Assembly: GCA_022497155.1 (NCBI GenBank)
Contig: MU385736.1
Span: 248,001-312,000, forward strand
DNA from: Whalleya microplaca
Taxonomy: Eukaryota; Ascomycota; Sordariomycetes; Xylariales; Xylariaceae
Length of the DNA: 64,000 nucleotides
Direction of reading: 5' to 3'
The translations under genes were made by a program, and so were the position numbers. Shown in pieces: positions 1,263 to 39,564 of the stretch; position 1 is the first letter of the stretch; each line of letters begins with the position of its first letter. The notes under the pieces are model-generated. The model made no database searches, was not told the origin of the DNA, and saw only the letters and a list, made by a program, of their open reading frames with translations.

Positions 1263-2234
1263 GAAGCTCATGAATTGAATCTAGATAGTTATCATCCTTG
1301 AAGTTTTGGTGTCTTTTGAAGACCAGTGTGTGAGGTAGCTATGTAGTCACTATTATTGAGGCGATTGTTTATTGGCTTTACAGAGAATTCTCATTGAAAG
1401 ATCGCCACAGGTATTCACTCATGCTTTAGAGATGTTAAAATTGCTCTCATCAAGATTTAGTTTAGAACGCAACTCGCACCAAGGGAAAGTGCCAACCCTA
1501 TGATATCAGCTTAGGCCGACCCCTGACATCAGAGGAAGTACCAATAGTTCAAAATTCGTCTAAGATATAGTATTCAGATAGTGTATCCAACCAGTTCTAT
1601 ATTCAAGTATAGTGTCGATAAAGCGTATTTACATATGTGTACCTATCAAGCGCACGTCAAGTATGAGCTAAGCATTTCAGTATTTCATGGAACATTGACA
1701 GCCCAAGAAAGTGAAACATCTCGTCATGCATCAATTAGTTTCAATATGTTCATTATCACAGTATCAAGGGTATACCTTACCTCTACTCGCTGGATAAGAT
1801 GAACAACAGGGGCTTTATATACAAATAATGCGTGTGCTAGCATCATGCCAGTATCTAACGCTTTAGATTCTCGTAAGCCTGGTCAACTTCACTTTTATTC
1901 TTTGTCTCCGTCTCTACTAATCTTCTATTATAACATACAGGAACTGGGTGGCAGAAGCCTTGTGGCCCTTGCAGGCCGTGGAATTGGCTCTGCAGGACCA
2001 TGTAGGCATAAATAAAAGCCGGAATAGGGGTAGCTAATAATCAGGCAGCTAGCATAGGCCCCAATATCTATAGCACTATATAGTAGGGATTTTGCCCCTG
2101 AGGACTCTAGTGATGGTACTCCCTGAATAATAACGACCATGATACTCATAACCTGAGCCCCTTTCAAGAATAAATAATCCATAATTCAAAGATCTCAAAT
2201 CAGCAGCAAATCTACGAGAGATTGTCTAGAAAGA
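1263..2234. other. Intergenic between convergent SDR and MFS genes
   Basis: This holds the 3' ends of two converging genes. Only short ORFs without recognisable domains are present (for example 1581-1802 and 1928-2182). Nothing else was recognised. Confidence 0.35.
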
Positions 2235-5513: not shown

Positions 5514-7307
5514 TTACCTCCTCTTCCATACCAATGGTGCTCGTTCTGGGTGCAACATTTGCAGTAACAATACCTGTGCAGAATCCGTCTCAATGAGATT
5601 CAAGACTCTGTTTCTTGCGTTATCCAGGCTTTCGCCGTCGCCTTGAATGGGGTCGACCCGCCAGTCACGAAATAGCCCAGCCATTGCTGCTACAAACTCA
5701 ACCTGCGAAAACTTCTTGCCTGGACATGAACGCTCGCCTTCCGACCATGGAAAAAATGTACCGCGCTGTGGTATTATTAAGTCCTCATCGAATATTGATC
5801 TCGTAGAATTGGTAGAACTGATCCACCTCGATGGTCGCCAGATGAGGGGATCGGGTCCCCAGTGATTTGGGTGTGTGTGCATGGCAGAATAGCTCGGGAT
5901 TACCATGGTATCCGGAGGAATTGTAATATCTAGGTTACCGACTTTTATCCTCTGCGCCTTGTTCTCTGTCCATTTCGCCACAGGAACAGGTGTGTAGAGA
6001 CGCACAGTCTCCATTAGTACAGCAGTACATCGCTTCAATCTTGCAAAATCGTTGCTATATTGCCATTCATCGGGGTCTCGCTCACCGAAGACATGGTGTA
6101 GCTCTTCGGAAAGCCAGTCCTGGACCATTGGATTCGCCGCCAACAACATGATCGCGAATGTTAGGGTATGTGCGGTAGTATCATGGCCAGCAAAGTTAAA
6201 AACAAACATATTGCCGTAGATCTCGGATTCTGTAAGACCGTTTGATGTTTTCGCTTCTTCATTTGAAGCTCGAATTAAGGAAGTCATGAGGTTGCGATCG
6301 GTAGATCTGCCTTCGGCAAAAGCACGCTTTTCGTCTTCATAAAGGTCTGTCATATACCTCTGAAATAAGACACAGGCTTCATGAACCCGTCGTAATCTCA
6401 GGGGTAGCCATGGCTTAGATAGGAACTTGGTTCCTAGGGCCATTATAAGGACGCAATTATCCAAGACTAGCTGGAGTGATTCTTTGTAGCTTGTCGATGT
6501 GCTGAGTTTTGACCTCTCTTCTTGACCTTGAAACTTGAAAGACTTCCCAAAGCCGGCCCTGGATAATACATGGAGTGATAGTGTACGCGTATCATCAGCA
6601 GTACTTTTGATTGACGCCCTCGAGGTCCAATAACGGAGCATACTGTCGGCTAATGAGATGCTCTCAGCCCATACTATCTCGTTGTTTTGTTCGTTGAAAC
6701 AGGACGCGGTTATTTTTCGCTGTGCTTTCCATTGATTGCCTTCAACCTAATGGAACATTGTGAGCTGCGGTCTGTATCAGGACAGTCAAGCTTACAGTAG
6801 ACAAATTAGGCCCAAAGATATTAAGCATCTCTGCACACATTTAGTCACCTCCGTCCCCATAGCGTAACTCAAAGAGGGAGAAAAGGAAGGTGGAAAAATT
6901 ATCGACTGACCGTATATCTCTAAGGGTCGAGGGAAATCCAATCGTCGTCTAAAGACTTCCATCAGGCTGTCAGGGTTGCAAAGGTAAAGCCAATTCTTCA
7001 CTGGGGTCACCAGCATGTACACATCTCCCATCTCAATGTGTGATCGGCATTTGTCCTCGATTTCCCACCCCCTCCAGTTGTACCTAGTAAAGTTTCCATT
7101 TCCAAACGGCAGATACTTGAGGAGAGAAATCACTTTCCTATCTACAATCATCCAGAGAGGATTGCCATGGCTGATGGGGATAACTCGTATCGGTATGCCA
7201 ATCTTACGTGCAGATGAATAGTTTCGAAGCAGACAAACACATGAATATGCTATCCAAAAAGACGTAAACGACACCAAGATCCAAAATAGTATGAGAAGGA
7301 CGGCCAT
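5514..7307 (-). CDS. Cytochrome P450 monooxygenase
   Basis: Haem-thiolate monooxygenase of 554 residues, the normal size for a microsomal fungal P450. Exons 7307-6911, 6830-6796 (35 nt) and 6746-5514 join in frame with GT-AG introns. A hydrophobic N-terminal anchor is at residues 2-26. The I-helix oxygen-binding motif AGHDT is at about 330-334, the K-helix ExxR (ETVR) at 390-393, a PERF-like RPSRW follows, and the haem loop FPWSEGERSCPG is at 476-487 with Cys485 as the iron ligand. All key residues are present, so the enzyme looks functional. It lies next to the damaged efflux carrier and SDR, a usual secondary-metabolism grouping, but its substrate cannot be told from the sequence. Its relation to the peptide cluster 15 kb away is unproven. 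Confidence 0.93.
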
Positions 7308-7764
7308 TGCAAGTGACCAAGTGTCTGTGCGACCCAGATATAACAGTTTCTCAGATGGCTCTTCGAAAATTCAAGACATTTGTCTGCGGGTAAAATAGAG
7401 GAAGAATATAAAAGGAGGTAGGAAGGGCCGACGAATTGGAGGCTGCCCGGCAGGATGTTGGAAGAGAAGCGTCACACCAATGCGGCTCCAACTGCATCTT
7501 GGGAGCGTGGTATCTATACCGTTGGTCATGAAAAAGCAATTATTCTACGCATGATTGGCCTGGGTGTTTTGGTTACCTGCATGAGCTGGGAACATGAGTA
7601 ACCGAGTAGCCAATGGACTATTGAAGAAACTCCTGCCCCAGTTTCAATACTACTTGGTACATGAAACCCTAAAAATCATATTGACAATCAAATTATGATC
7701 TGGCATGTCTACAGCATTCTTTTCAGGGAGTCCAGTTTCATCAATTTATAGCGACCGGGATATA
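7308..7764. other. Intergenic, P450 upstream region
   Basis: Promoter side of the P450, extending to the MITE. No coding signal is seen apart from a short spurious ORF at 7351-7539. Confidence 0.35.
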
Positions 7765-12420: not shown

Positions 12421-14145
12421 TCACCACTGCGGCTTTCCTAGCGCCCTCAGCTTCGCACCGAATTTCCAGAGGAGGAACGGTGCAGGCCAGCCGATGGCAA
12501 TAAATGTGAACGCAAGTAGACTGTTGCCCCAACCGTACCCGAGGTTCTGATACATGGCTGGCGCGAAGATGGGAAACGCAAAGCCAGCAATGCTGCGCAG
12601 AAATTGAGATGCTGCAGATGCCGAAGCCACATACTTGCGATATGACTCCATCACATATGCCTGCAGAGCCTGAGTGTTAAGAATGATACCACAGCCAAAT
12701 ATGGCAATGCCGATGTCCGGGACAATCCAGTGTGTCTTGTGTTCAGCTGTCCAGCCATAGATAAAAAGGCCGGTGGGAATGAGTATGGCACCGGGGATCA
12801 TCAGCGGAACTCGGTATTCTGGAGCAGTGTTATCGCCAGCTTTAGCCTTGAGATACCCCCATAGATAATCCATTACTTGGCCGCCGGCTTGCGCAGCAAC
12901 TGTGTAGCCGATGACGAGAGCAATGTAGTGAAGTCCACTGTCAGAAACGCTCTGACCATACCGCTCAATCCACAAACTGGCAAACGTGGATAGGACAATG
13001 TAGAGGATACCGAAGTTGTAGGCCAGAAACAGTGCTACAACCTGAAGGGTAGGTTGCGTCACAAGAAGACGGAACGGCCGAGTTAGAGAGAGGAAGAGCT
13101 TGCTACTCAACGTCTCGGATGCATCGTGCGTCTCGGTATAGTAAGGTTTCCCCGTAGCTTTCCGCAGCTTAACAGCCTTCCTATGGAGCAGGATTACGTC
13201 GTACGTCTCTTGAAAGACGGGGATAGCTATGAGCACTAGAAGACCATCATAGATGGACAGTATCCAGAAGGTCCATCTCCAGCCGATCGTTTGCGAGACA
13301 GCCCCACCGATGATCGGCCCCAGTGCTGGTCCCAAAAGAGGTATGAAAGTAGAGATAGCAAATGACTTTCCGCGCTCCGAAGGTATCCAAGTGTCCGACA
13401 AGACTGGCGAAGAGACGGCGAACTCAGCGCTAGCTCCAATACCCGAAAGCACACGGCTGGCAATCATGAGCCCCCTTGTTTGACTGAAACCGGCGACCGT
13501 GTTCCACAAAATGTAGAAACAGCTTGAGATAATCCATACCGGGCGCCGCCCGAAAACCTCAGCAAGGGGTGCAAGGACCATGGGCCCGAAGGCGAAGGCA
13601 AGGACGAAGATAGAGAGGAAAATCTGTGCCTCTTCTTCGGAGCTTTGGAGATCTTTGGCAATGGCTGGAAGGGCCGGAGCCAGCATGGCGCCTGACATGA
13701 GGGTAATCAAACCCCCATTCGAGAGAAGAATGGTGATAACCCATTTGCGAGTCAGGGACCAGTTGAACGGGTGTGCAGGATCATTGTCGCCATCCCAGGT
13801 GACCTAGGAAGTACCAGTGGTTAGCACCGATGCCTAACGGAGACTATGTTCGCGTGTAAGAGGATGAGGATGTGTAGTATTCCCTATGTAGACAGGGACA
13901 ACGGTGCCTTGCACAGATATCGTTTAGGCAAACAAATAGCACCTAGTAGGTATAATCCTCCGACAATGAATGCCAAGAGAACTTCCCCGAGGCCCTTGTG
14001 TTCGACGTGCTGGATGTGAATGTGAAGATAGTCCGAGTTGAAAGCAGCTTACCAATAGGGACTCCGTCTCTTCTCTGCTTGAATCAGTCAGCGGCTCTGA
14101 GACAGCGGGCTCAGCCGCCGATTTCTCAACATCTTGCGTGCCCAT
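12421..14145 (-). CDS. DHA1-type MFS transporter
   Basis: Twelve-helix proton antiporter of the fungal multidrug/polyamine DHA1 group, 491 residues, in the plasma membrane. Two exons (14145-14053 and 13803-12421) are separated by a 249-nt intron. The first exon encodes a short charged cytosolic tail. The second opens with VTWDGDNDPAHPFNWS, the signature just before helix 1 in this family. GPMVLAPLAEVFGRRPVW is the motif A region after helix 2, and LLGPALGPIIGGAV is motif C, which marks exporters. The frame is open throughout with no damage. It is separated by 1.8 kb or more from any biosynthetic gene, so its substrate is unknown. Confidence 0.92.
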
Positions 14146-21658: not shown

Positions 21659-23786
21659 ATGTTCACCCACGGAGTACTGTCTACAATTTTGCTTAGTTTA
21701 CTCGGCGAGGCAGTAGGTAGTAATGGACAGCGGTATCCTAGAGTGATCGAATCTACCCACGCTCCTGCGAACTGGAGACGACTTGGTCCTGCTGAGGAAG
21801 ATACGGTCATCCACCTGCAAATTGGCCTCAGACATAGCGGCTTCGACAATCTTGAAAGACGGCTTTATGAAGGTATTAACGTTTACTTGAAAACTTACTA
21901 TTCAATCATATGGGCCCTATGCTGACGACACTTCATTCTTATTAGTATCCAGTCCATCACATAGTCAATACGGTCGCCATCTTTCAAGAGAGGACCTTGC
22001 GGATATCATCAAGCCAGCTCCAGAGACTTTGAGGGCTACACAAGACTGGCTTTATGACAATGGAATCTCCAGTTTCAACTATACAGCAGGCGGGGATTGG
22101 ATCACCACGTCAATTCCTGTTCGGCAGGCCGAGGTGCTCCTTGGTAGCCAGTATCACGTCTTCATGAACAGTGAGGATGGAGACATGTTAGTACGCACGC
22201 TTGAGTGGTCGATACCAGCCCATATTCACGAGCATGTCGATGTTATCCAACCAACCAATTCTTTCTTTCGTGCTGTCCCGCAAGACCGGTACGGCGGGGT
22301 TCCTCGTCCAGAATGGGAGCTGGAAGGCAGGATACCCACCTATGACGAACTTGTGGAAGAAGACCTAGTGGAGCGAGGCCATCTCGATATTCCTAAGTTG
22401 GAGGAGCTACCACCCAATCCCACCGCAGAGGACGCTTGCAACAGGCTGGCAGTGTCCCCGCTCTGCCTCAGGGTACTATATGGGACTTTGGACTACAAGC
22501 TGCAATCAAACCAGTCAAAGCTTGGAGTTGTTAATTTCCTGGGTAATAACAACAACCGCTCGGACATCGCGCGTTACCTGGAGCTATACCGCCCAGACGC
22601 CGCACAAGACGGTGCTGCCGACGCTTTTGAAACAGTTCTCATAGGCGACGCACAAGATCAGCAGACGCCCAACACCCCAGAGCAGATGGATCACAATATG
22701 GGACTTGAGGGCGCACTAGATGTTGAGACGCTGATTGGAATGGCACACCCTATACCCGTCCTAGCTTGGAACGTTGGCGGAGAGCCGCCTTTCAAGCCCA
22801 GCAAGAATAAGGTTACGAACTCCAATGAGCCTTATATGGAATGGCTCAATCATATCCTTGCGCAGGATACCTTGCCTCAAGTCATATCTGTATCGTACGC
22901 AGACGAGGAGCAGACTGTCCCGGAAAGCTACGCGAAACGGGTGTGCGCAGCATTTGCACAGCTTGGAGCGCGCGGTGTCAGCGTCATTGTAGCCGCTGGA
23001 GACGACGGTGTTGGTCCAAATGGAAAATGTTTTAGCAACGATGGTCAGCGTCGTGATAAGGCGAAGTTTATGCCTACGTTTCCTGCCTCATGCCCATTCG
23101 TGACCGCTGTTGGGGGAACGAGACATCTTGACCCCGTCATGGCGGCGTTTGATGCAAGGGGAGCATTTGTAACTGGTATGCACACTACACCTATTTTGAA
23201 CGCACAATTGAGCTTTATCTCTATGGAAGTGTACTGACATATGATAACAGGTGGTGGCTTCAGTGATTACTTTGATCGGCCTAAGTACCAAGATTCAGCT
23301 GTGCGACCGTACGTTGAAGGACTGAATACCACGTATGAAGGGCTCTATAATGCACGAGGACGTGGTATTCCTGATGTCTCAGCAATGGCGTACCATTTCC
23401 CAGTTGTATGGAATGGGACGGCTCACCTTCTCGATGGGACCAGTGCCTCGGCTCCTGCGTTTGCTGGCATCATCGCCTTGGTTAATGATGCTCTTTTGGC
23501 TGAGGGGCGCCCGCCAATGGGGTTCTTAAATCCCTGGCTATATGGCTCGGCCCATTCCGGTCTTCGAGACGTTGCTCACGGTTCTAATCGCGGTTGCGAT
23601 ACCCTTGGTTTTGAGTCCGTGGAAGGCTGGGACGCTGCTACTGGTCTTGGCACACCAGTAAGCGCTAGATGACTCCTGATCTTCAAGAGAAGTATTGCTA
23701 ACATGTAATAGTGGTTTCCCACGTTAAAAGACTTAGCTTTGCGGAATGCTTTCCGGTGGCAGCATCCATGGTATATGATGGAATAG
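21659..23786 (+). CDS. Sedolisin / tripeptidyl-peptidase-like S53 protease 1
   Basis: Secreted serine-carboxyl protease of 641 residues. Exons 21659-21872, 21946-23175, 23251-23657 and 23712-23786 join in frame. A signal peptide covers about residues 1-20, followed by a pro-kumamolisin activation domain (HLSREDLADIIKP). Catalytic Glu326 and Asp330 lie in EGALD, and the nucleophile Ser546 in DGTSASAP. The final 25-codon exon (WFPTLKDLALRN) supplies the usual sedolisin end. The triad is complete, so activity is expected, in acid conditions by family. It is a tandem paralogue of the S53 gene at 26043. Two S53 genes flanking a UstYa gene suggest roles in trimming peptide-precursor fragments, which is inference; general extracellular proteolysis is the alternative. 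Confidence 0.93.
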
Positions 23787-24294: not shown

Positions 24295-25498
24295 TCACCA
24301 GTCTTCTCCATCTGGATAGGCAGGGCCTATTATACGGGTCTAAATAAGCGAATATCTTTTTAACAGCATAGAAAGAATAATAATAAATGCACGTACCTTT
24401 TGTAGGGTGAATTAGCCATCCCGGTTTCATCATGTTTACCGTACGCTTTTTTGTCCACTCCTCGATCTTTTTCCAATTGGCACATTGATGAGAGGTGGAG
24501 TTTGCTACCGGGACCATGATGTTAGAGTTCCATTGAAAAGTGATTACTCCGACATCAGCGTGACACATGGCGGATTGGCGGAGGAAATCGAGGCAGTGAT
24601 CTAAACATATAGGATGAGTAACTGATGCCATGCCTCAAAGAATAATCAGGGGGTTATCACCTTTGTGCATACGGTTGATGTCTCTTTCTTTAGGTGTTTC
24701 ATCTGGAGTATAGATCTCAGGGTAGGTATACTGGTAGAGCCGTTTCTGCAATAGATTAGGTGCTTATTCGACTATCACGCATAATTGTATTACGTACAAT
24801 GCAGTGGAGCTCGTGATAGACATTGAGAGTACCGAGGAAGCCCTCTCCGTCTGGCATAGCTACGCCAAATTGGTCCCGGCCGTACTCCTTCATTATTTCA
24901 GGCTCAAGCATTATATTCTCGTCTATTCATAATTAGCAATAGAAAACTATTCTGACAGAAGAAACAACTTGCTATTGAGAAGGTTGTGCCAGTTTTGATC
25001 GATCTCGTCTCGCGGAAGCCCAGAAAAGGGGCCATGCACCATGTCATTTTCATCGAAAACGTGTGCTTCCCATTCTACAGCGTCGTTCGCCGGTGCTATA
25101 TGAAATGGTAATGAGTACTTGATATTTATTGCCGTCTCTCATGCTAACTTACTGTTGACAAGTTGAGGGCCATATCTGCGTAACCTGTTGACCTCAGACC
25201 GGAGAGACACAACTGTTCCAATATAGACAGCGAGTAGTATTAGGTGCACGAGAGCAAACCCAAGCCACCATAATCCCCTGCGAGACGGACGCCTAGAGCG
25301 AAGGTTCTTGATTTCATTTTCACTGAGGAAAGACTCCTCGCTCTCTGATCCGTCGGTCGAGCTCTTTCCGTTGGCATTTGACGCAGCTTCCTTATTAGAG
25401 ACTCCCTGACCTTTGAAGAAAAACGAAGAAGACTTTTTCACGGAAAACATATTGTATCGTCCAGCTTCACAGACTGACTCTGTTCGCTTAGTATTCAA
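24295..25498 (-). CDS. UstYa-like oxidase A (DUF3328)
   Basis: Member of the UstYa/DUF3328 family, whose characterised members carry out oxidative cyclisation or other oxidations of ribosomal peptides (dikaritins) in fungi. Six exons fit: 25498-25153, 25095-24973, 24922-24798, 24745-24661, 24600-24397 and 24326-24295, giving 304 residues. One transmembrane helix (about 77-98, WWLGFALVHLILLAVYIGTV) makes it a type II membrane protein. The two HxxHC metal-binding motifs that define the family are HELHC at 193-197 and HKDHC at 225-229, followed by DFLRQSAMCH, and the end is HPTKGPAYPDGED. Intron 2 has a GC donor. It is head-to-head with sedolisin 2 across a 544-bp promoter and shares exon lengths with UstYa C, so the two are paralogues. 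Confidence 0.93.
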
Positions 25499-26042: not shown

Positions 26043-28044
26043 ATGTTATGGGCATCGGCCGTGATATTAACGAGCTGGTTTCAATTGACATTGGCTTCGA
26101 CTCTGAGCGAGGTCTCATCATCACATGTTTTAAAAGAGCGCCATGTCGTACCACGGGGCTGGACTCGCGTCAGGCGAGCCCCTACAAATCATCTCATCAA
26201 ACTACACATTGGACTCGTACAAGGGAACTTTGGGGAGTTAGAGAGGCACCTGGGAGAGATATCAGATCCGTTGCACGAAAGGTTTCGCCAACATCTCACT
26301 GAGGACCAAGTCAACAGCATCATACAGCCTTCAGATGACACGATTAATACCGTAACAGGCTGGCTAGGAGACTGTGGAATCCGGACAGAGGAGCTTGAGT
26401 TCACCCCGGCGAAAGACTGGATTATCACCCCGGCGCTGCCAGTCTCCTTGATCGAGAATCTTCTCCAGACGTCGTACCATGTGTACCGAAGAGGACATAA
26501 AGAGATTGTCCGGGCAGAAGAATGGTCTCTTCCGCTTCAACTACATGGGCTAATTGACATAGTACAGCCAACGACCTCTTTCATCCATCTGCGCTCCCTC
26601 GCTGTTACAACTAATTCCAGAGGACCGGCTAACAATGACACGACACCCACCTCCTTGAACGATGCAGCTGAAGATCTTCCCGATGGTCTCGATATCTTGA
26701 AAGGCATCGACTTAGACAATCTACCAGATGACTTGACAGCTGACAAGGCTTGCAACACGAGCGCTGTCACCCCGATATGCTTGCGCACACACTACGGTAC
26801 TTTGAATTATAAGGCCCAAGCGGCCGACAAGAATAGTATGGCCCTAAGCAACTATCTGGGAGAGTTCAACAATCGCTCTGATATCAGCCATTATCTTAAG
26901 ATGTACCGGCCGGAGGCCGCCCGTGCCGCAGAGGAGTTCGCTATCAAGGAAATTGCCGGTGGAATCAATCAGCAGACTCCAGCCAACAAGTCACAATTGG
27001 ATGATGGTGATGGTAAAGAAGGTAACCTTGATGCTCAAGTTATGCTTGGCATTGGATATCCTACGCCCCTAATCACTTATACTACTGGAGGAGATCCGCC
27101 GCCCTACGATCCGGACGTATCACTACCGGAAAATACCAACGAACCCTTCCTCACTTGGCTCCAGTACGTTCTTGCACAGCCTGAACTACCCACCGTTATC
27201 AGCACGTCCTACGCTGACGCTGAGTACACGGTGCCTCCCTCGTATGCTAAAAGAGTCTGCAACGGCTTCGCTCAGCTCGGCGCACGGGGCGTGAGCGTTA
27301 TCTTTGGGTCCGGCGACTGGGGTGTTGGGAAACCGGAGCAGTGTCACGCACCAGATGGAACGCCGCGTTTCGTCGCACGATTCCCTGAGAGTTGCCCATA
27401 CGGAACATCGGTCGCAGCCACGCGGAACATCGATCCGGAAATAGTGGCCTACAACGATCGCAACGGCTTTGTCAGCGGGGGCGGGTTCAGCGAATATTTC
27501 CCTCGTCCCGCTTACCAGAATGACACTGTTGAATCGTATATCTCGAAACTAGGAGGCACGCATGAGGGTTTATATAATCCCACTGGCCGTGCATATCCTG
27601 ATGTAGCCGCTATGGGCTACAGGATTGTGACAATATGGAACGGAACGGTCAAGGTTGTTGACGGGACCAGCGCTTCCGCACCGATATTTGCAGGTGTCAT
27701 GGCTCTTGTTAATGATGCCTTGATTGCTGATGGCAAGCCCCCTATGGGTTTCCTTAATCCGTGGCTCTATTCTGGTGGCTTTAAAGCCTTCAGGGATGTC
27801 ACCCAAGGCTCAACGAGAGGCTGTAACACAGATGGGTTCCCGGCTGTGGAGGGATGGGATGCAGCAAGTGGTTTTGGTACACCCGTGAGTATTTTGCACG
27901 TTTATGACATACTTCGTGACCTCTTTTCTTTTCCTTCTTTCTTAATGCCCCATGCTTACATGTGAACAGTGGTTTCCAGATTTTAAAGTATTGGCTGGCC
28001 AAAGTAAATTCAGGTCTACTAGGCCGTGGTACATACCAGGGTAA
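26043..28044 (+). CDS. Sedolisin / tripeptidyl-peptidase-like S53 protease 2
   Basis: Paralogue of the S53 protease at 21659, with 638 residues in two exons (26043-27884 and 27970-28044). It has a signal peptide (about residues 1-18) and a pro-kumamolisin region (HLTEDQVNSIIQP). The Glu and Asp of the catalytic site are in EGNLD, SGGGFSEYF follows, and the nucleophile Ser is in DGTSASAP. The last exon is 75 nt, exactly as in sedolisin 1, and the intron before it is in the same place, so the pair arose by duplication; the other two introns of sedolisin 1 are absent here. It shares a divergent promoter with UstYa A, which suggests co-expression with the peptide pathway. A role in trimming Kex2-released peptide units is possible but unproven. 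Confidence 0.93.
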
Positions 28045-28728: not shown

Positions 28729-31552
28729 CTAGCATACACCAGCAGGACACCCAAATCCTGTTGACCACCGCTGCCCCCCAACGCCTAAAATCGACAACAC
28801 GCAATTGATCGTGCCCCCAATACCCTCTCCAGCGACAAGACCAGCAGCAACACCAAAAGCATAGTGCTCATAGCCCTCGTGGCTCCTCCAACGCCAGACC
28901 TTGGCAAACAGGGCACCCATCATCATCGTGATGCCCGTCTGTGGAGATGGTAGGGTGAAGGCTAGCGCCAGAATCATCATGTTTGGCAGGTAGTGGCGGA
29001 CGTACTGAAATCGTCCCACAAACAGAAAGTGTCTTAACAAGACTAGAAGAGCAGCACTAAACGCTAAACCGATGGAGAAGTACACGCTAGATGGGGGAAT
29101 AGGCGACGATGGCTCGCTAGCGGCGATGGCAACAGCCCTCCAGGCCGCGACGGCAGGTCCTGGAAACTCACATGATTCTCCAGAGGCTTCCTCCTCCGGG
29201 CTAGCAATGATGCATGGATATGCCTTCGCGAAGAGTACAAACACTGCTGGGGCAACCAGTGTGGCAATCAGCGTTCCTATCAACTGGGCTGCGTATTGAA
29301 GTCGCGGGGGAGTCTGCAATAAGAAACCCACCCGGAAATCGCCAATCAGATCTGCAAGTCCCTTGTTAGAAAACCAAAATATTGTCTATGCACATTTGAA
29401 CCGTGTTTGGAGACTCACCACAGCCCTGGCTTGCGCCGATGTTAGTAAGGCTAGCCCCAAGCAGGTTCAGGCGTTGAGCAGCTGTAACACTTCCGCCCGC
29501 TGCACGAGTGACGCTACTCAGGATGACCTGTGACACTTTGGAGATTGCATTTAGAGGAGTAGTATCTGGAAGTAGGTAGGGACCGATCCATTAGTTTCGG
29601 TACTGCACAGTCTCCGTTACAGATAACGGAATTAAGGGAAAGCCACATACCTGTTGCGCCAGTAGCCTGGATGGCAACTAGTGATAAGCAAAATGCTAAG
29701 AATAGGGCCAGCAATGCCTCGAGGAATGACATTTCGAATTGTAATTTGGTCAAAACGCCTGCTAATATAATAAGGATGATAACACCTGGTGCCCACATCC
29801 AGGTTGCGATATCCTGGTTGTCATGTACGCTATGCGGTAATTCATGAGTGGTTTTTCCCTCATCTTCGACGATGCTATACTCGTAAGATACATGCCGGGG
29901 TAGCAGACGCCGTATGATAGAAGTAGTAGCCTTGGCAGAAAGAAGACCGAACTTCCAGAGAACACGCCATTGGCAACTTAGTTCTATATAACATTAAAGT
30001 TATTACTATTTCTTGAATAGTCAAGAGATGAAGGGGGAGGGAACTCACCTACAAATGCTACAGCCAACGTACAGGCAACGCCTGGCCACAGTAGCCAATA
30101 CCGAGGGCTCGGGTGACTGGCACTAGCAAATTCAGTTGACATCGACTTGTAAGACATCAAGCCAGTCCAACCAGGTTGGGAAGAGATGTGGTCGCCGAAA
30201 GCGATTTTCCGAGACACAAGGTACGGTCCTATGATGCCCCTATACAATTCTACGGGTTAGCTTAGACATATCAATAGCTTTGTTGCAGATTGGCTATAGC
30301 AGCTTACCATGCAAGGATTGATCCGGCAAAGAACGAACAGGCTACTCCGAAGTCTACCAACATCCCAGATCCAATCATAGCTGGTGACCTACAGCATACT
30401 AAAGTCAGTATTTTGCTCTCAGTCAGTTGAGCAATCAGCTGAGGATTCTTCTCTCAAAACATGATCAAAGGTGAAACAACTCTAGATGTTACTTACCATT
30501 CGAGAAACCACCCCCAGCTCTCGGCAGCAATAAATAAGTTACGACCAACATTGATTTCTGCAATCCAGGTAAAGATATGCCAATTCTGAGATATAATCAG
30601 TCAGTCATACATTTGGCAAGCAAGTCCCAGAAAATCATCTACAGGGTCGCGGCTTAGATAATGACTTACCCAGAAGATACCCACTGCAAACTGAGACACT
30701 ACCCTCAGAATCATGGCGGCCAAAAAAGCATACAAGGTTGCCTTCATCTTACGAGCGGCAACTTGCTCGCCATCTGCGGCTGAGTGCATGCTCCGAATCG
30801 TGATAGCCGTTGCCATGGAAGAAGGGAATATGAGGTTGAGCTCTCGAGCAACATTTTCGATGAAGAACCGTCGCACTAATTTGTTAAGCATAAGGCAAAG
30901 CCTTCAAGAACAGGCCACTTGACTAGGAAGTACATACGAGGGACAATAGACAGGAGACCAAAATACCCCCCGATAGCGGTGAGCGTGACAATCCGGAAGA
31001 AGTCCTCTGCTGGCGTTTTCAACAAGCCTAGCTGATACAATGCTGGGATAGCTGATATGAAAACATTCGACATACCGCCCGAAGCCGTGGCTACGGTCTG
31101 CACGATGTTGTTCTCATGTGGACCGAACTCATGCTTCGAACCAGCAGCCCATTTCTTTAGCACCGAAAAACCTACGATAGCCTAATTATATTATAATGAT
31201 TAAATCAGCAGTTCTCGATACCGCGGCCAAGATTTGGCCTGTAGATTTGATGATAAAATTAAGAGGAATGGACCCTACATACACCAAGAATATTCGCCGA
31301 CGTTGTCCATCCTGCCCTCAGACCAAGGTAGATGTTAGAAGCATTGACCAGAGCACCACAAAGGCTACCCAGCAAAATAGCTCGAGGCGTGACAATGTCG
31401 ACAATTGGTGCTGCCGGCGCTGTCTCAAAGGGAATGAAAGGATCGTTAGTAGAGACTTCTGCGCCCGATTCAGCGTCAACAGGTCCATCGTCACTACATC
31501 TGTTTGCCTCTTCAGGATCACTGTTAACTCGTGGGAGCGGGTAGAAAGACAT
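28729..31552 (-). CDS. OPT-family oligopeptide transporter
   Basis: Proton-coupled membrane carrier of the oligopeptide transporter superfamily (OPT/YSL type), 637 residues. Nine exons join in frame: 31552-31283, 31181-30938, 30875-30670, 30585-30497, 30388-30308, 30239-30049, 29983-29651, 29565-29419 and 29351-28729. Family marks include GSLCGALVNASNIYLGLRAGW in the first helix, GPHENNIVQTVATASGG at about 110-126, the VPLRRFFIEN and LIFPSSMATA blocks, an AWGIIGPYLVS segment and CDLIGDFRVGFLL. The frame is clean. It is head-to-head with UstYa B (830-bp promoter), between the S53 pair and the precursor gene. Inferred role: moving small peptides, such as the mature product, trimmed spacers or digestion products. 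Direction and substrate cannot be read from the sequence. Confidence 0.92.
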
Positions 31553-32382
31553 TGAGTATTCACGATAATTTCTACGTTTGAGGCCAATATCTTCGAAATA
31601 TTCAATAAGATAGTTGGAATTTGCGGCAACTGGTCAAATCCTGACCTCTCGACGAACCAATCCCAGGAGACTAAGCTCTTGAGACAAGAGCAGCAGGGAG
31701 GCAGGGGGGAGCGGAACGTCAATCCGTACTTAGCGTACAGCGGTACCAACAGTCCTGTAAGTGACCCAATCTGTATCTGAGCTGCAAAGATCGGCGATTG
31801 GGCATTCCAATGACAATTCGACTTGGTGGTGCCGTTGGGAGCTGATCCCCTGTAGAGGGGTCTAGATCCATGTGTCTTTCTCGTGGTCAACATCGTTGCA
31901 TGCATAACCGACGAGACCCACACAGAGGTACGACGCTTGATACCCAGTCAGCCTTGCGATGCATTGTCATTGTGCATATGCGCCAGACCCTTACAGCATA
32001 TGCGCCAGACCCTTACAGCACATATCCCGTGGGCAAAGTTGAGCTTAATAGTAAGCTAAATTTAGCTTATCTTGAATCCTTCCTCGGCTCCGAATCCAGA
32101 CCCGGTATAGCATTATTCGTTTAAATCAATATGAAAATAGCTTCATCAGTCACTGTATAGGTTCGTGACATTGCAGGATTGTGACAGGTTTCTCACATAG
32201 AACAGTCGATTATGACTACGCCTCGTCTGAGGCCTTGACCTTCGGAAGCAACCGTTCTTCGAAGCCGACTAAGACAAATCTTCATACTTGCGTCTTCTTT
32301 CCTCCCATTCCAAAAACCCAGCCAACACTCCTTCAAGTACACAACGAAAGTTGCTAGGCATCTTTCGACAGCTCTAAACACC
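31553..32382. promoter_or_regulatory. Divergent promoter, OPT transporter and UstYa B
   Basis: The 830 bp between two start codons. It contains a 22-bp tandem duplication (31974-32017) and one CTACGCC element (32216-32222), 161 bp upstream of the UstYa B start. ORFs inside it (31318-31923, 31870-32124) look like shadows. Confidence 0.5.
31974..32017. repeat. 22-bp tandem duplication
   Basis: Two exact adjacent copies of a 22-bp unit that begins GCATATGCGCCAG and ends CCCTTACA, followed by a partial third start (GCACATAT). It lies in the divergent promoter of OPT and UstYa B. The function is unknown. Confidence 0.85.
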
Positions 32383-33706
32383 ATGGCGCCCTACTTCTAC
32401 AAACTGCCTCAGTGGAATTGGTCAAAGTCTGCCAAAAAATCATACACTTCCATCCCTGGGGGTTCACCTACATTCCAAGACAGAACGTCGATAGACCATG
32501 ACTCTAACGATGGCCTCCTGGAGAAGGGTGGTCGAGAAACGAGTGTGAAATATGTGCGGCGGCCTATATGGAAGAACAGTACGTATTCCGGCCCTTTGTG
32601 TGTTCTTTCATATTGTCTTGGGGGCGACGCCTGTCTATAGAGCGTTGCTGGAGCTAGACCTCCTGAGACTTCAATTGGGACATACAAAAAGGGCAATTAC
32701 CAATCATTGATTGCATATAGCACGGTTCCTGGCAGCACATTGCGCTCTGTTCGCAGTGTATGTGTTCATTCTGTTCCTTGTAGCCAATGATAAAGGAGGT
32801 GCTAGGTATTATGGAATGCCATTCTGTAAGTCTTGTGATTTCGATATAGATTAGTGTGGTAAAACCGGGCTGACGAAGGTGATTAGCTCCCGCTAGAGAT
32901 GTCTTGGTATATGAAGAGACTAAATTCACTTTGGAGGACCACATTCAGGAGAGCGGGGAGTACTCTGGCAAACCCAGTCCATCCCTCGATAAGGCTTGGC
33001 ATGATCTGTTGAACGGTAAGATCTTGAGCCCCAGTCCCATATCGCCATTAGCAATTATCTAGCTCATCGTCGAATGTGTCTATAGATGAGAACATCCTAA
33101 TCGAGCCCGAGTATATCAAACATTACGGGAAAGAAGACACGGCAGTTGAGGTCCCGGAAGGTGGCCGCTATGTTGGTACTCTCAACGTTTATCATGAGCT
33201 TCACTGCCTGAAGAGAATTCGTCAGTATATGTACTCGGATTACTATTTCCCTGGGATCTCGGCTCATGACCTGGAGATGAATCGTTTACACAACGGTGAG
33301 TGATGTTTTTCGTTTTGTACCATGTCAGCACCTCGCTTTACATATATTCACATGCCTGACAGAACATTGCATCGACTTCCTACGCCAGTCTGCGATGTGC
33401 CACGGCGACATTGGTCTTATTGCGTATAGTTGGCGCGCAGAAGATCGCATGCCATTTGCAAACGCAACGAGTCATCAATGCATTAACTGGGATCGATTTT
33501 CGCAGTGGACCAAAGCGCGCTCCGTTGATATGATGAAGCCAGGCTGGCTGATCCACCCTACCAGAGGTTCGACTCCACCCCCTAAACGTATTCTATTTAC
33601 TATCCAATCTAACTCGAATCATGTCGCAGGGCCTGCTTATCCTGATGGAGAGGGGGATAAAATTGGCGCCTATGAAGCAGAGCATGATGGCCACGGCGGA
33701 CATTGA
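32383..33706 (+). CDS. UstYa-like oxidase B (DUF3328)
   Basis: Second UstYa-family protein of the cluster, 306 residues. Exons 32383-32578, 32721-32825, 32887-33015, 33086-33295, 33363-33566 and 33630-33706 join in frame. The second exon encodes the transmembrane anchor (HCALFAVYVFILFLVA, about 70-85), and SPARDVLVYEE begins the lumenal domain as in other members. The HxxHC motifs are HELHC at 180-184 and HNEHC at 212-216, with DFLRQSAMCHGDIG after the second. Its 210-nt fourth exon equals the summed lengths (125 + 85) of two exons in paralogues A and C, so one intron was lost precisely or gained in the others. The C-terminal tail (EAEHDGHGGH) is longer than in A. It is divergent from the OPT gene. 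Inferred role: oxidation or cross-linking of the released peptide units in the secretory lumen. Confidence 0.93.
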
Positions 33707-34525
33707 TCTGCTTTTAGGATTCTTGCTTGTGGTGATGGTAGTATTTCCTCTTTTGATGTCAGGAATGATTCAAATGATATATTGAATCACGGCACTCTAA
33801 TCTGGATGATATAGTTCAGTCGAAATTTTCACTGTTACCATATTCAAGCTAGTCAAACTACCTAGGTACATGCGCGTTTGGTTTGTTGCTCGCATGGTTA
33901 TCTTTCTTAATTCATGTATCGGCCGGAGTATTGGGCTGTACGAAACAACTGCACTTTTCGTTTCTATCAGCCAACTCGTATTTTCACCCCCTTCTGTGAA
34001 TGCCAGAAGAATCAAGGACTTTTCAAGTATGCGTCAATAGAAAATCAAACACTGGAACCTGGTTTCATCAACAGAAAGAACATGCGAGTTACTGTGCTAG
34101 TTGTGCAATGCCTACAACGCGCGTCATTGGTAGAAATCCCAGACATTTGAATCATAAGACTAGGACTAATCTTAAATAATTCTTTGTTGTCACAGGAATA
34201 TGACGGTATTGTACATCCTTATCATGAAGAGTGTTATCCTAACTGTGATTGGAAATTGAATCAGATGCAACTTGTGAAGAAGGAGAGATAAGGTGGTGAA
34301 AAGGTGCTTAATTGGTCTTATTTTCATACAAACGAGTAACTGTATAGTAGAATCGTGTAGCAGACATCTGATCTAGTTGCTCGTAATTCATGGAAATCTT
34401 TAACCTATGGGTCTCATGGCCTTCCCATCTATTGGGTTTCATCCCACCACATATTCCTATCATGTTAACCTACATTATAACAGTTTCTTATAGAACTTGA
34501 AGCTGAACATGTCAAGTGTGAATAC
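33707..34525. other. Intergenic between UstYa B and the MULE relic
   Basis: About 0.8 kb downstream of UstYa B. An ORF at 33914-34150 has no domain. Nothing else recognised. Confidence 0.35.
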
Positions 34526-34533
34526 CTAAACGA
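34526..34533. repeat. Target site duplication, left copy
   Basis: CTAAACGA directly abuts the left end of the element and recurs at 37479-37486 at the right end. An exact 8-bp direct repeat is what a transposon insertion leaves. Confidence 0.85.
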
Positions 34534-34648
34534 CGGTACGGTTATAATGACTGTATAAGCTGTTAAAGTGACTGTGTTCTAACTTATTTCGGTTAGGTAG
34601 GTTAGGTACGTATCCCGTAGTACATTTTATTAAGAAACGGATATACTT
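34534..34648 (+). repeat. Left terminal inverted repeat of the MULE
   Basis: Starts CGGTACGGTTATAATGACTG. It matches the reverse complement of 37364-37478 over about 115 bp with a dozen or so differences, largely C/T or A/G. Confidence 0.88.
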
Positions 34649-37363
34649 TCCCTACTTTTTAAAACCTGTTAAAATGCTTTTAATAGCAATTAATAGCTAC
34701 ACTTAAATAACTTTGATTTTTTTAAAACTGTAATAAAAATTAAGCGCGTTCGTTTTTTTATCTGACTTTATTTAATCTAATACTTAACGAAAAATCAATT
34801 TTTTTATACGCAAATTAGATTTTTTAAGGTAACGTAATTTAATGCCTCCCCCCTAACCTCCCTATTACCTTTAAACCTCCTAATCTTCCTGCTTTCTTTA
34901 GGTCTGCCGGCGCTGTTAATAAAAGCGGCCTAAAGCTATTTATAGTATGTCTCGTTACTCGATTCCTTTTAATAGTTACTAGCAGCTGACTTGTCCGCCG
35001 GCGCTGCCGAGAAGGCTTATTGTGAGAGGGATTACGCCTTATATTATTATTTACCCGAGCCCGGGGCTATTACGTTAAGGGTATTACTTCCTCCTTTTTT
35101 TTTTTCTTGCGGTATTAAAGCTATTACTACATTTTCGGCTGCGCTATAAGCGGTTATCGGTAACGGCTACGTTTTATTAATATTTTTTTGCTGTCGAGGC
35201 ATTATTTTAAAATTAAGCTTTTGTAATAACCTTATAACTTTATCCGATATTAATTAGTTACCTTTTCGAATTTATTAATAGCTATAAATATGATTTAATT
35301 TTAATTAAGCTATAGTATTTAATAAACCGAGGATTATATGCCAGCAAAGTAGTTTATACCGTTATAAATATGCGTTAATATAGATTTCTCGTATTTGTTA
35401 ATTATTTAACGCATTTTTAGCTAATTAATATTACTCGAAAATTATATAAAGGGCTTTATGGCTTAAATAATAACGAAATCTAGCTATTACTAATACCTTG
35501 TTATAGTTTCGAATTCGATTTTCCTGCTTTCTCGCTAACTTTTAACTATATTGCTGCTTAACCTGTTCGAACGATATTTTTACTACTTAATAAAGCTATT
35601 TAAAGTTTAAAAATCGATTTTTTAAAAATCGTTTAAGGAATTTGTATGATTTTTTTATTCGAGACGTTAATTTAATGCCGAAATTCCGATGGTTTTTTAT
35701 TACAAATTTAGTAAATTCGTAAAAGATTATATAATAAATATTCCTAAGGTATTTAATAATCGGCTGCTAACTAGCGAATTTACGTAAAATAATTTCTTAT
35801 ACTTTTTTAAATTCTTTTCGAATAGATAAGTAAGTAGCTAACCTTTAGGCGTATAAAATACTATTGGCGTTATTTTTAAATTTTCGGCCTAATTTGGGAT
35901 TAGTTTAACCGGTATTTTTAATAAGCTGACGTTTAGAGGCTTAAATGCCTTTTTAAAAGTAAATTTTACGATCGTATTTATTTAATATCCGAGTAGTATA
36001 TTAGCCTATTTGGGGATCGTTAATAGCTTTTTCGTTAATAGCTTTAGCTAATTTAGTTTCGTTTTTAGATTTGTCGTTTTTATATAGCCGGCTGCCGATA
36101 CCCCCTTATTATTCGCCGAGAATTATGCTTTTAAGGGTACCTATCCACTTTTTTCTAACGTTATATATAATATTTTTAAATACGTGTTAAATATAAATCT
36201 AATGCTTTATTTCGTTATTATATATAGCTTTAGCTACTTTTTTAAAGGCTTTATCGAAATCGCTAATAATTATATAAGGGTTCCCGATATTATATTTCCT
36301 AATATATACTTTTAAACTTTATAATACTTATGTAAAAAATGCCTTTTTTTTGCCGCTTAAAAGATAATACGTTATAGGAAATGTAGTATAAAAAAAGGTA
36401 ATTTTATTGATTTAATAAAAAGATATCTCGAACCGGTTAACTTTATATATATTATTAGCTGATAATAGTTTAGGATTTTTCTGCCATAGCTAAATATACC
36501 AGTTATATAGCTAAAAAATCCTTTCGATTCGATTATTTTAGCTATAATATACCTTATAATAAATACCTTTACTTTCGAGAATATAAAGGAATTATTATAT
36601 TACTATACGGTTTCCGAAACGTGTTTTTCGGGCTTTAATTAAGTGATTAGTAATAACTTGTCGATCGATATTTAAATAAGGGTATTTTATACGGATTTCG
36701 TTAATAACGTTAAATGCTGTATTTTTTAGTTTTAAAGTAGCTAATTCGATATTTTATAGCACTTTTTAAGTTAAGTAATTTTATCGATTAGTTATAATAA
36801 AAAAAGGTCTCGAGAATATAATATAATTATAAGTTCGGCGGTTTTTTATGTATAAAAAATGCTATCTAGGCTAGCTAATATAAGGGACACGTTTTCTTTA
36901 AAAGTATATTAAAGCTACTTATTAAAGGCAATTTTCTTTAATAACCGCCCTTTATTTTTTGCCGGTACTAGTTATATATATATCTCTGCCTTTATAACAC
37001 TTAAAAACGATTTTAGCCGGGCCGCCGAGAATTATTAAATAGTTGTTGCTATAGCGGCATATAGTAATAAAGCCGGCTGTTTTATAGGCTTTTAAAAGGT
37101 TAGATTTAGTTTCTTAAAAACTGAGCCAAACCTTAGATTTAAGGGTTTTAAAAAAAGAGGCTAGCGGCGGCGGTAGCGGCGGAAATAGTAATTAAAAGTT
37201 AGGTTAATCGAGGGAATCGATTAAATTAAAGTCATTTTTTTTAAAGAGGCTGCAATCGGCGTATTTAGCTATTATAATAACTTCAAAAGCAACGGGTATA
37301 ATGGTAGGTGTAGTAATAGTTATTAAAAAATTACAGGTTTAAGTAAGATAAGGTTATTAAAAA

Positions 37364-37478
37364 AGGTACATCTATTTTTTAATAAAATATACTGCGGGGT
37401 ACGTACCTGACCTACCTAACTACATTAGGTTAGAATACAGTCACTTTAACAGCTTATACAGTCATTATAACCGTCCCG
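37364..37478 (-). repeat. Right terminal inverted repeat of the MULE
   Basis: On the minus strand it starts CGGGACGGTTATAATGACTG and pairs with the left repeat. Long terminal repeats of this kind, with an 8-9-bp duplication, are usual for Mutator-like elements. Confidence 0.88.
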
Positions 37479-37486
37479 CTAAACGA
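37479..37486. repeat. Target site duplication, right copy
   Basis: Second exact copy of CTAAACGA, directly abutting the right end of the element. Confidence 0.85.
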
Positions 37487-38347
37487 GGAAATAGGTAGGT
37501 ACCTAAGAAAGGACACAGTCAGAACTCGGTCGGGTCTACTTTGACATTCTAAGCGAAATGTCTATTGAAATTACTCTACCAATGTCTCCTTAACTCATTA
37601 TGACTAATTCCTACATCTCCTATTGCCTTAAGTACCGCAATTGAACACCTTTACATATATCAAAATAGGCGACCGGTCAATCAGAGAACGCACAAGCCAA
37701 CCTACATGGACAACCATCACCACCCAAAATTTCACCTCAAACAAATACCGCAGACCAACATTCGTAAATCAAATTGGGCTGTAAGTTCGAGGCGAGTAAT
37801 ATATACTCTCCGGCCAAGAGGGCTTGGCATTGTGCGTAAAGGTTTCTGCTTCACAGCACCTGATGAAACATCAGTAAGGAACTTATTTCCACTTGTTACT
37901 TCCTAGGGGATAGTAGCATGTTTTCACTGAGATGGGAAGAAGCCATAGAGTTGGTTTTTTTAAGAAAACTTAGAGATTGGATAGCTAAGTCTTATCGCCT
38001 TAAGCAGCACGAGTACGTCGCACTGCCTCAGGTCAGAGCAAGGCTAGGAAGCGCAACAAAGCATCTAACTACACACACAGCAACTCCCCCTTGCGAAAGT
38101 AATAAATACAATCACAACGTGACCGCGGGACAAGCGGAAAGTAATTGAAAGGTCCACTACAAGCTTTCCCTCCCCCCGCCCAATTTCCCTTCCTTCAAAA
38201 CGCCTCACTCAATTGCCAAAACCAAAGAGGTTGACTGATTGACAACACCTCGGCTTGCTACCAAAGGGAGTCAGTTCGGCTGCAGAGACAGATCTGATTA
38301 GCGTCCACAATGTCCACTCAAGGCAGAAAGGGGCAGTACCCACACAT
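37487..38347. other. Intergenic between the MULE and the precursor gene
   Basis: About 0.86 kb of 3' flank of the precursor gene. ORFs at 37706-37906 and 37918-38148 have no domain. Nothing else recognised. Confidence 0.35.
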
Positions 38348-39564
38348 TTAAGAGGAGAAAGCGACAGCGCGCTTGTCAGCGATATACTTAGTAGCCGCAT
38401 CAGCATCAGATCGCTTGTCGGCGATGTACTTGGTAGCAGCATCGGCATCCGATCGCTTATCGGCGATATACTTGGTTGCGGCATCAGCATCACTTCGCTT
38501 GTCTGCGATATACTTGGTCGCAGCATCAGCATCAGATCGCTTGTCTGCAATGTACTTGGTAGCAGCATCGGCGTCAGATCGCTTATCCGCAATATACTTG
38601 GTAGCAGCATCAGCATCGGAGCGCTTGTCAGCGATGTACTTGGTGGCGGCATCAGCATCAGATCTCTTGTCGGCAATGTACTTGGTGGCGGCATCGGCAT
38701 CCGATCGCTTATCAGCGATGTATTTGGTGGCAGCATCGGCATCGGATCTCTTGTCAGCGATATACTTCGTCGCGGCATCAGCATCGGAACGCTTGTCCGC
38801 AATGTACTTGGTTGCGGCATCAGCATCCGAACGCTTGTCGGCGATATACTTGGTAGCGGCATCCGCGTCAGATCGCTTGGCCTTGTCGGCAATGTACTTG
38901 GTGGCAGCATCAGCGTCCGAACGCTTGTCAGCGATGTACTTCGTGGCAGCGTCGGCGTCAGAGCGCTTGTCAGCAATGTATTTGGTAGCTGCGTCTGCGT
39001 CTGAACGCTTGTCGGCAATGTACTTAGTAGCCGCATCCGCGTCCGAGCGCTTGTCGGCAATGTATTTCGTGGCCGCGTCCGCGTCGGAGCGCTTGTCAGC
39101 GATATACTTGGTAGCGGCGTCGGCGTCGGAGCGGTCCGCAATGTACTTGGTAGCAGCGTCGGCGTCGGAGCGGTCAGCAATGTACTTGGTTGCTGCGTCC
39201 GCATCCGAACGCTTGTCGGCGATATACTTAGTAGCGGCGTCGGCGTCCGAACGCTTGTCCGCAATATATTTGGTGGCTGCGTCGGCGTCGGAGCGCTTGT
39301 CAGCGATATATTTAGTAGCCGCGTCCGCGTCAGAGCGCTTGTCGGCGATATATTTGGTAGCCGCGTCAGCGTCAGAGCGCTTGTCAGCGATATACTTGGT
39401 GGCAGCGTCGGCGTCAGAGCGTGCGACTAGGCCTGGAAGGAAGAATGTAAGTCAGGGGATCCATGGTAGCCTTGGAGCGGTTGTATCTCACCATCAACAA
39501 CTGGCGCAGCCAGGGAGGTTCCGGCAATGGCAAAAGCCGCGATGAGGATCGAAATCTTCTGCAT
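38348..39564 (-). CDS. Kex2-processed repeat precursor of a dikaritin-type RiPP
   Basis: Secreted multi-copy peptide precursor, 385 residues, in two exons: 39564-39492 and 39432-38348, with a 59-nt GT-AG intron. Residues 1-19 (MQKISILIAAFAIAGTSLA) form a signal peptide, followed by APVVDGLVAR. Then come 25 tandem units of SDADAATKYIAD, each closed by a basic site (KR in 22, R alone in units 6 and 7, KAKR in unit 13), and a short tail AVAFSS. The sum 29 + 350 + 6 gives exactly 385. This is the architecture of KEX2-processed repeat proteins, including the precursors of ustiloxin- and phomopsin-type peptides. Its divergent neighbour is a UstYa oxidase, with two more nearby, which supports a cyclised peptide product. 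The Tyr-Ile containing KYIAD part is the likely core. There is no internal ATG in the repeats, so standard ORF calls miss it. Other possibilities are a secreted surface or pheromone-like peptide. Confidence 0.9.
38366..39417 (-). repeat. 25-copy tandem array with 42-nt period (precursor core repeats)
   Basis: 22 units of 42 nt, two of 39 nt (units 6 and 7, near 39130-39210) and one of 48 nt (unit 13, near 38877-38924). Units differ at many third codon positions but encode the same twelve residues. N-terminal copies mostly use GAC for the two Asp codons and C-terminal copies mostly GAT. Confidence 0.93.

Follow-up and report, generated by a model that had tools for sequence, protein, structure and literature searches.

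A 25-unit repeat precursor of the DADAAT type beside UstYa genes in Whalleya microplaca: a putative locus for an UstYa-modified peptide

The window, that is, the whole 64-kb stretch of Whalleya microplaca DNA that was analysed and to which all positions refer, carries a gene for a repetitive, presumably secreted precursor, surrounded by UstYa-type genes, peptidase genes and a transporter gene. The relevant features are the following.

21659..23672, plus strand: second S53 sedolisin gene, with a pro-kumamolisin domain, boundaries approximate
24295..25450, minus strand: UstYa A (PF11807), 288 residues by gene model, motifs HELHC and HKDHC
26043..27965, plus strand: S53 sedolisin gene, TPP1-like
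28729..31633, minus strand: OPT-family oligopeptide transporter gene, multi-exon, boundaries approximate
32383..33706, plus strand: UstYa B (PF11807 exon matches), 306 residues by gene model, motifs HELHC and HNEHC
34000..37500, no strand: island rich in AT (GC 26-38%) with a RIP-like bias, separating UstYa B from the precursor
38348..39564, minus strand: candidate KEP/RiPP precursor gene, 385 residues, exons 39564-39492 and 39432-38348; signal peptide, 25 x SDADAATKYIAD and C-terminal AVAFSS
38361..39421, minus strand: array of 25.3 tandem copies with a period of 42 bp and 82% matches (TRF)
39433..39491, minus strand: predicted GT-AG intron of 59 nt, in which CTGAC resembles a branch site, junction backed by relatives P0038 and P0043
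40837..41974, plus strand: UstYa C (PF11807), 283 residues, motifs HELHC and HSEHC, one predicted membrane helix
43208..44899, minus strand: AATF/TRAUB domain gene (open frame)

Read on the minus strand, the precursor starts with an ATG at 39564 and its stop codon ends at 38348, which gives a protein of 385 residues. Inspection of the open reading frames reveals no Met upstream of the repeats in the repeat-bearing frame, and an ATG start therefore requires splicing to the exon that encodes the signal peptide. The frame and the intron proposed by the first-pass annotation are thus reproduced to the base. Moreover, the spliced leader APVVDG/LVARSDADAAT resembles the N termini of the Beauveria protein P0043 (ASPVVLVARSDADAAT) and of the Akanthomyces protein P0038 (ASPVALIARGDADAAT), a likeness that supports the predicted junction independently. 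The predicted signal peptide, MQKISILIAAFAIAGTSLA, was called from hydropathy (mean of 2.19 over 15 residues from residue 4). Within the genome the gene stands alone: all six matches to its N-terminal 139 residues, at E values up to 10, fall in the precursor gene itself, which rules out a multi-copy precursor family in this genome. The protein is not among the hits of a protein search that scored the best 7997 candidates and whose length range admitted it, and the gene may be absent from the existing annotation of W. microplaca. When a cut form of the precursor was compared with Pfam, CRA_rpt scored 13.3 bits, below its cut-off of 21.4; all such matches lie under the curated cut-offs and were taken as composition noise. 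An Rfam search of the 64-kb window returned no match, and a scan of the same window flagged no other KEP-like open reading frame.

As had been claimed from the first reading, the signal peptide is followed by 25 exact units of SDADAATKYIAD, nearly all closed by Lys-Arg. In particular, 22 units are closed by KR and one by KAKR (23/25 together), units 6 and 7 are followed by a lone R, and the closing residues alone stand between units. The 25 DNA copies of the unit are all distinct, with a mean difference of 6.81 in 36 bases, and none of the 300 encoded residues is changed, so that the divergence is synonymous only. Without selection, at least 24 synonymous and no replacement changes would have a probability of about 10^-12.5 to 10^-15.3, computed for transition/transversion ratios of 4 to 0.5 and with the changes treated as independent. 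Selection holds the repeat peptide constant, because the copies differ from one another and do so synonymously only; the same divergence rules out a chance or low-complexity artefact. The 1-kb blocks that contain the array display no RIP-like bias (TA/AT of 0.65 and 0.79), though a RIP-like island adjoins.

The precursor has three UstYa/DUF3328 genes within 15 kb, which bears out the earlier claim of multi-copy Kex2-type cores next to UstYa genes. The nearest, UstYa C, is divergently oriented at a distance of about 1.3 kb, and all 283 residues of its product agree with F5B20DRAFT_546464 of Whalleya microplaca (Xylariales), an identity of 100%. Assignment to PF11807 rests on Pfam searches with the spliced proteins for UstYa A and C and on exon matches for UstYa B. 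Each of the three keeps two HxxHC motifs and one strong hydrophobic, putatively membrane-spanning helix, and in a moderate AlphaFold model of UstYa C (mean pLDDT 71.2, pTM 0.60) the two motifs fall in helices 163-178 and 189-213. A sequence search of the PDB for UstYa gave no match, with the single sequence and with the profile alike, and neither UstYa C nor the S53 protein encoded at 26043-27965 had a match in NCBIfam. The genome searched (48.1 Mb, 114 contigs) holds about 24 UstYa genes, a lower bound obtained by grouping 34 PF11807 exon matches, and from about 24 genes in 48 Mb about 0.015 would be expected by chance in such a 30-kb stretch. A Claviceps protein resembles UstYa A and B (53% and 61%) more closely than UstYa C does.

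UstYa A and B are interleaved with the two S53 peptidase genes and the OPT transporter gene. The S53 protein from 26043-27965 can be aligned with tripeptidyl-peptidase 1 (3ee6; E value 7.1e-59), and it has residues that line up with Glu, Asp, Asp and Ser, the catalytic residues of TPP1. S53 genes are not abundant in this genome, as 10 exon matches correspond to about 9 genes, two of them at the precursor locus. Between this group and the precursor lies the AT-rich island, in which 1-kb blocks have TA/AT values of 1.2-1.4, a RIP-like dinucleotide bias; the island may contain transposon remains. Because it separates them from the precursor, UstYa A, UstYa B, the S53 peptidases and the OPT protein are less securely placed in a common pathway than UstYa C, and, given also the closeness of UstYa A and B to the Claviceps protein, they may serve another one. 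On the other side, the AATF/TRAUB gene is the probable right border of the cluster. Far to the left, on the minus strand, a cytochrome P450 (5514-7370) and an MFS transporter (12421-13803) are encoded, and nothing ties either to the locus. In an exon-wise search of the best candidates, tyrosinase (PF00264) gave 18 matches in the genome and S41 peptidase (PF03572) gave three, none of them on the precursor contig.

Relatives of the precursor were sought in two protein searches, in which the best 7997 and 7994 candidates by word sharing were scored and in which relatives will have been missed; at least 2 precursor-like proteins came from one and at least 10 from the other, with P0001 and P0002 common to both. 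Complete units were found in Blastomyces (SDADAATMYVVDKR, four copies), in Histoplasma (SDADAATRYVVDKR, two copies and one ending in D, from two gene models of one strain), in Akanthomyces ([SG]DAD[AT]ATAYKADKR, four copies), in Colletotrichum (SDADAATAYTADK, two copies, without the Arg) and in Beauveria (SDADAATSYVRDK, one copy, without the Arg). Metagenomic relatives contribute ADADAATAYATNKR and SDADATTNYVVDKR, and a Penicillium fragment contributes SDADATTDYVGGKC. Each relative has one to four complete units, several of them being fragmentary gene models, against 25 in Whalleya. Degenerate or cut units occur as well; for example, SEANLPVLNMV-, which has no Tyr, opens the repeats of the Blastomyces protein and of Histoplasma P0036.

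Eight complete unit types were compared, leaving out the Penicillium fragment, its near-copy P0002 and the degenerate units. The residues at positions 2-5, 7 (Thr), 9 (Tyr) and 13 (Lys) do not differ among the eight; positions 1, 6 and 12 (Asp) are kept in seven, and position 14 (Arg) in six. Positions 8, 10 and 11 are variable: among the relatives, the residue after Tyr is I, V, K, T or A and the next one A, V, R or T. The word-based search itself accounts for part of the constancy of SDADAAT, and less so for that of Tyr and for the variation of its flanks.

This family has been met before. In Le Marquer et al. 2019 (PMC6339444), a DADAATXYV[A/V]D repeat is printed among new conserved KEPs of Pezizomycotina, and DADAATKYIAD fits it at 10 of 11 positions. 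That is, both share DADAAT-x-Y-[hydrophobic]-A-D in secreted Kex2-processed repeats, whereas Whalleya has Ile for Val after Tyr (the ninth position) and Lys as x. A second description is very probably type G-6 (#13) of Umemura 2020 (PMC7329392), which comprises 49 KEPs from 19 genera, including Colletotrichum, Chaetomium, Hypoxylon, Cordyceps, Beauveria, Blastomyces, Histoplasma and Paracoccidioides. Its units are rich in Tyr and Asp, CRA_rpt is among its Pfam matches, and for 46 of its 49 KEPs DUF3328 genes lie no more than 15 genes away (Table 2 of that paper), compared with 22% among KEPs as a whole. Type G-6 is very probably the DADAAT family of the Whalleya precursor. Its genus list overlaps our relatives, and it shares with the Whalleya gene the Tyr/Asp-rich units, a CRA_rpt match (below cut-off in Whalleya) and the nearby DUF3328 genes; Whalleya itself lies outside the genus list given there. 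Among the homologues of UstYa C (33 proteins at E values up to 1e-20, itself included), named ones come from seven G-6 genera, namely Hypoxylon, Chaetomium, Colletotrichum, Beauveria, Cordyceps, Paracoccidioides and Aspergillus, and others from outside the list (Tolypocladium, Aphanocladium, Usnea, Mollisia, Claviceps and more); the overlap of genera is suggestive only.

Consequently, the first impression of an undescribed-looking precursor does not stand: the repeat was printed in 2019, and the search of the unit against known KEPs and RiPP precursors that had been advised led to relatives in Histoplasma, Blastomyces, Akanthomyces, Colletotrichum and Beauveria. The Whalleya precursor adds a member to a KEP family already in print; it does not represent an undescribed kind. 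The related idea of a core outside the known families is right in that it is not a ustiloxin, phomopsin or asperipin core, and wrong in that it fits the motif printed in PMC6339444. Text searches retrieved no paper on fungal peptides, by title or abstract, for the exact SDADAATKYIAD unit, and PMC6339444 alone, by title, as relevant to the repeat motif. No report of a product of DADAAT-type precursors was found in the literature searched, bioRxiv preprints and most subscription papers lying outside its scope.

Taken together, we infer, with a probability of roughly 0.7, that the locus serves an UstYa-type (ust-RiPS) peptide natural product and that its precursor belongs to the reported DADAAT family of KEPs; the product would be an UstYa-modified RiPP. 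From its motifs, the precursor would enter the secretory pathway, where Kex2 would cut after KR and a Kex1-like carboxypeptidase would trim the KR to release 12-mers of SDADAATKYIAD; units 6-8, joined by lone Arg residues, would remain one longer piece. An UstYa oxidase, most likely UstYa C, would then act on the conserved Tyr, with SDADAAT as a conserved recognition stretch, a step suggested by the neighbouring genes, by conservation within the family and by published work. Subsequently, the recognition part might be stripped by aminopeptidase action, perhaps that of the clustered S53 enzymes in steps of SDA-DAA-, to leave TKYIAD or KYIAD, and the OPT protein or another carrier might move the peptide. 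The idea of tripeptide trimming arises from the S53 genes neighbouring the precursor: the 12-mer splits into SDA-DAA-TKY-IAD, and, speculatively, a tripeptidyl peptidase could trim it to TKYIAD. Several findings count against the UstYa-modified RiPP, among them the Colletotrichum and Beauveria units without a full KR pair, the Tyr-less first unit of the Blastomyces protein and of Histoplasma P0036, and tyrosinase, needed by ustiloxin and phomopsin, of which none of the 18 exon matches lies on the precursor contig. As for the last, the asperipin-2a cluster consists of four genes, none a tyrosinase, according to PMC6514808; it likewise combines a KEP precursor, an UstYa homologue and a transporter, and it differs in its core (FYYTGY), its single UstYa, its reductase aprR and in that no S53 peptidases are named for it.

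An unlikely alternative is a linear, unmodified secreted peptide, acting as signal or effector, which Kex2 and Kex1 would free as SDADAATKYIAD, perhaps trimmed further, with the UstYa genes serving another substrate. Many KEPs do yield linear peptides (PMC7329392), conserved KEPs were discussed as possible infection peptides, effectors or signals by Le Marquer et al. (PMC6339444), and DADA recalls the X-Ala dipeptides of Ste13-trimmed pheromone precursors described in both; the unit, however, opens with Ser-Asp and not X-Ala, which would put Ste13 steps out of register. Against such a peptide also stand the adjoining UstYa C, the frequent proximity of G-6 KEPs to DUF3328 genes, and the Tyr of all tabulated unit types, though the first degenerate unit of Blastomyces and of Histoplasma P0036 is without it.

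It is very unlikely that the repeats are not the product at all, and that the gene encodes a structural, surface-active or decoy protein or is an unexpressed tandem array. The 42-bp array with its high copy number would suit this, and Rep1 of Ustilago is a Kex2-cut repetitive surface protein (PMC7329392); yet 25 diverged copies without a replacement change, a polar, acidic unit conserved across classes and an UstYa neighbour speak otherwise. An ascomycete alpha-pheromone precursor, with its X-Ala/X-Pro Ste13 spacer and Trp-bearing core (PMC7329392), is ruled out, as the unit starts with SD and has no Trp.

The label dikaritin-type, used in the first-pass annotation, is apt for a KEP precursor with UstYa genes and fails for the strict set. 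Ustiloxin and phomopsin precursors likewise have a signal peptide, multi-copy KR-bounded cores and several DUF3328 genes; in contrast, their cores are YAIG, YVIG and YVIP (Tyr-x-Ile), they employ a tyrosinase, S41 peptidases belong to the dikaritin set, and the ring links Tyr to the Ile two residues on (PMC6514808 and PMC7329392 for the first points, PMC7329392 for the ring). A strict dikaritin with such a ring is hardly tenable here, despite the shared precursor layout and DUF3328 genes, as the Whalleya core reads Tyr-Ile-Ala-Asp, with Ile at Tyr+1 and Ala at Tyr+2, the relatives vary at both positions (Val, Ala, Arg or Thr at Tyr+2), and neither tyrosinase nor S41 peptidase has a match on the contig; the ustiloxin-type Tyr-Ile ring itself is ruled out by the residue at Tyr+2.

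Returning to the UstYa-modified RiPP, a cross-link, if made, must therefore differ from that of ustiloxin and phomopsin, and a single constant partner, if any, would be expected to be either the Thr two residues before Tyr (Tyr-2) or the Asp three after it (Tyr+3; 7/8 unit types). A tentative and rather doubtful extension is that the DADAAT family forms a distinct class of UstYa RiPPs, with SDADAAT for recognition and a variable x-Tyr-x-x-Asp core, in which Tyr would be cross-linked to one of these two residues and TPP1-like S53 enzymes would take off SDA-DAA- and stop at the cross-link.

DADAAT-type precursors occur in the dimorphic fungi Histoplasma and Blastomyces and in fungi associated with plants and with insects. 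The interest of the locus lies in the product of this widely shared family, which is absent from the literature searched. W. microplaca is named in work on endophytes and leaf-litter fungi, and its gene is a convenient source for the product and function of the family, because 25 identical units stand beside an UstYa gene.

Elsewhere in the genome, a KEP-like frame at C13:915500-925400 (region positions 1388-1681, minus strand) has a signal-like N terminus and three copies of TNDYPKYGSASEYEAVN, of which two end in KR-type sites and one extends to the stop codon, with several UstYa exon matches adjoining. Another, at C78:54000-63900 (region positions 7297-7569, plus strand), has four PPLWDGGV units, which in three cases read PPLWDGGVDF and end in KAKR or KVKR; an UstYa exon match lies about 2 kb off. 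At C48:316393-322397 an UstYa gene has an OPT transporter about 4 kb off; a scan of C48:302000-331500 flagged one Arg-rich frame and nothing KEP-like. At C4:534995-541981, where a scan flagged no KEP-like frame, UstYa exon matches adjoin a tyrosinase, as in dikaritin clusters.
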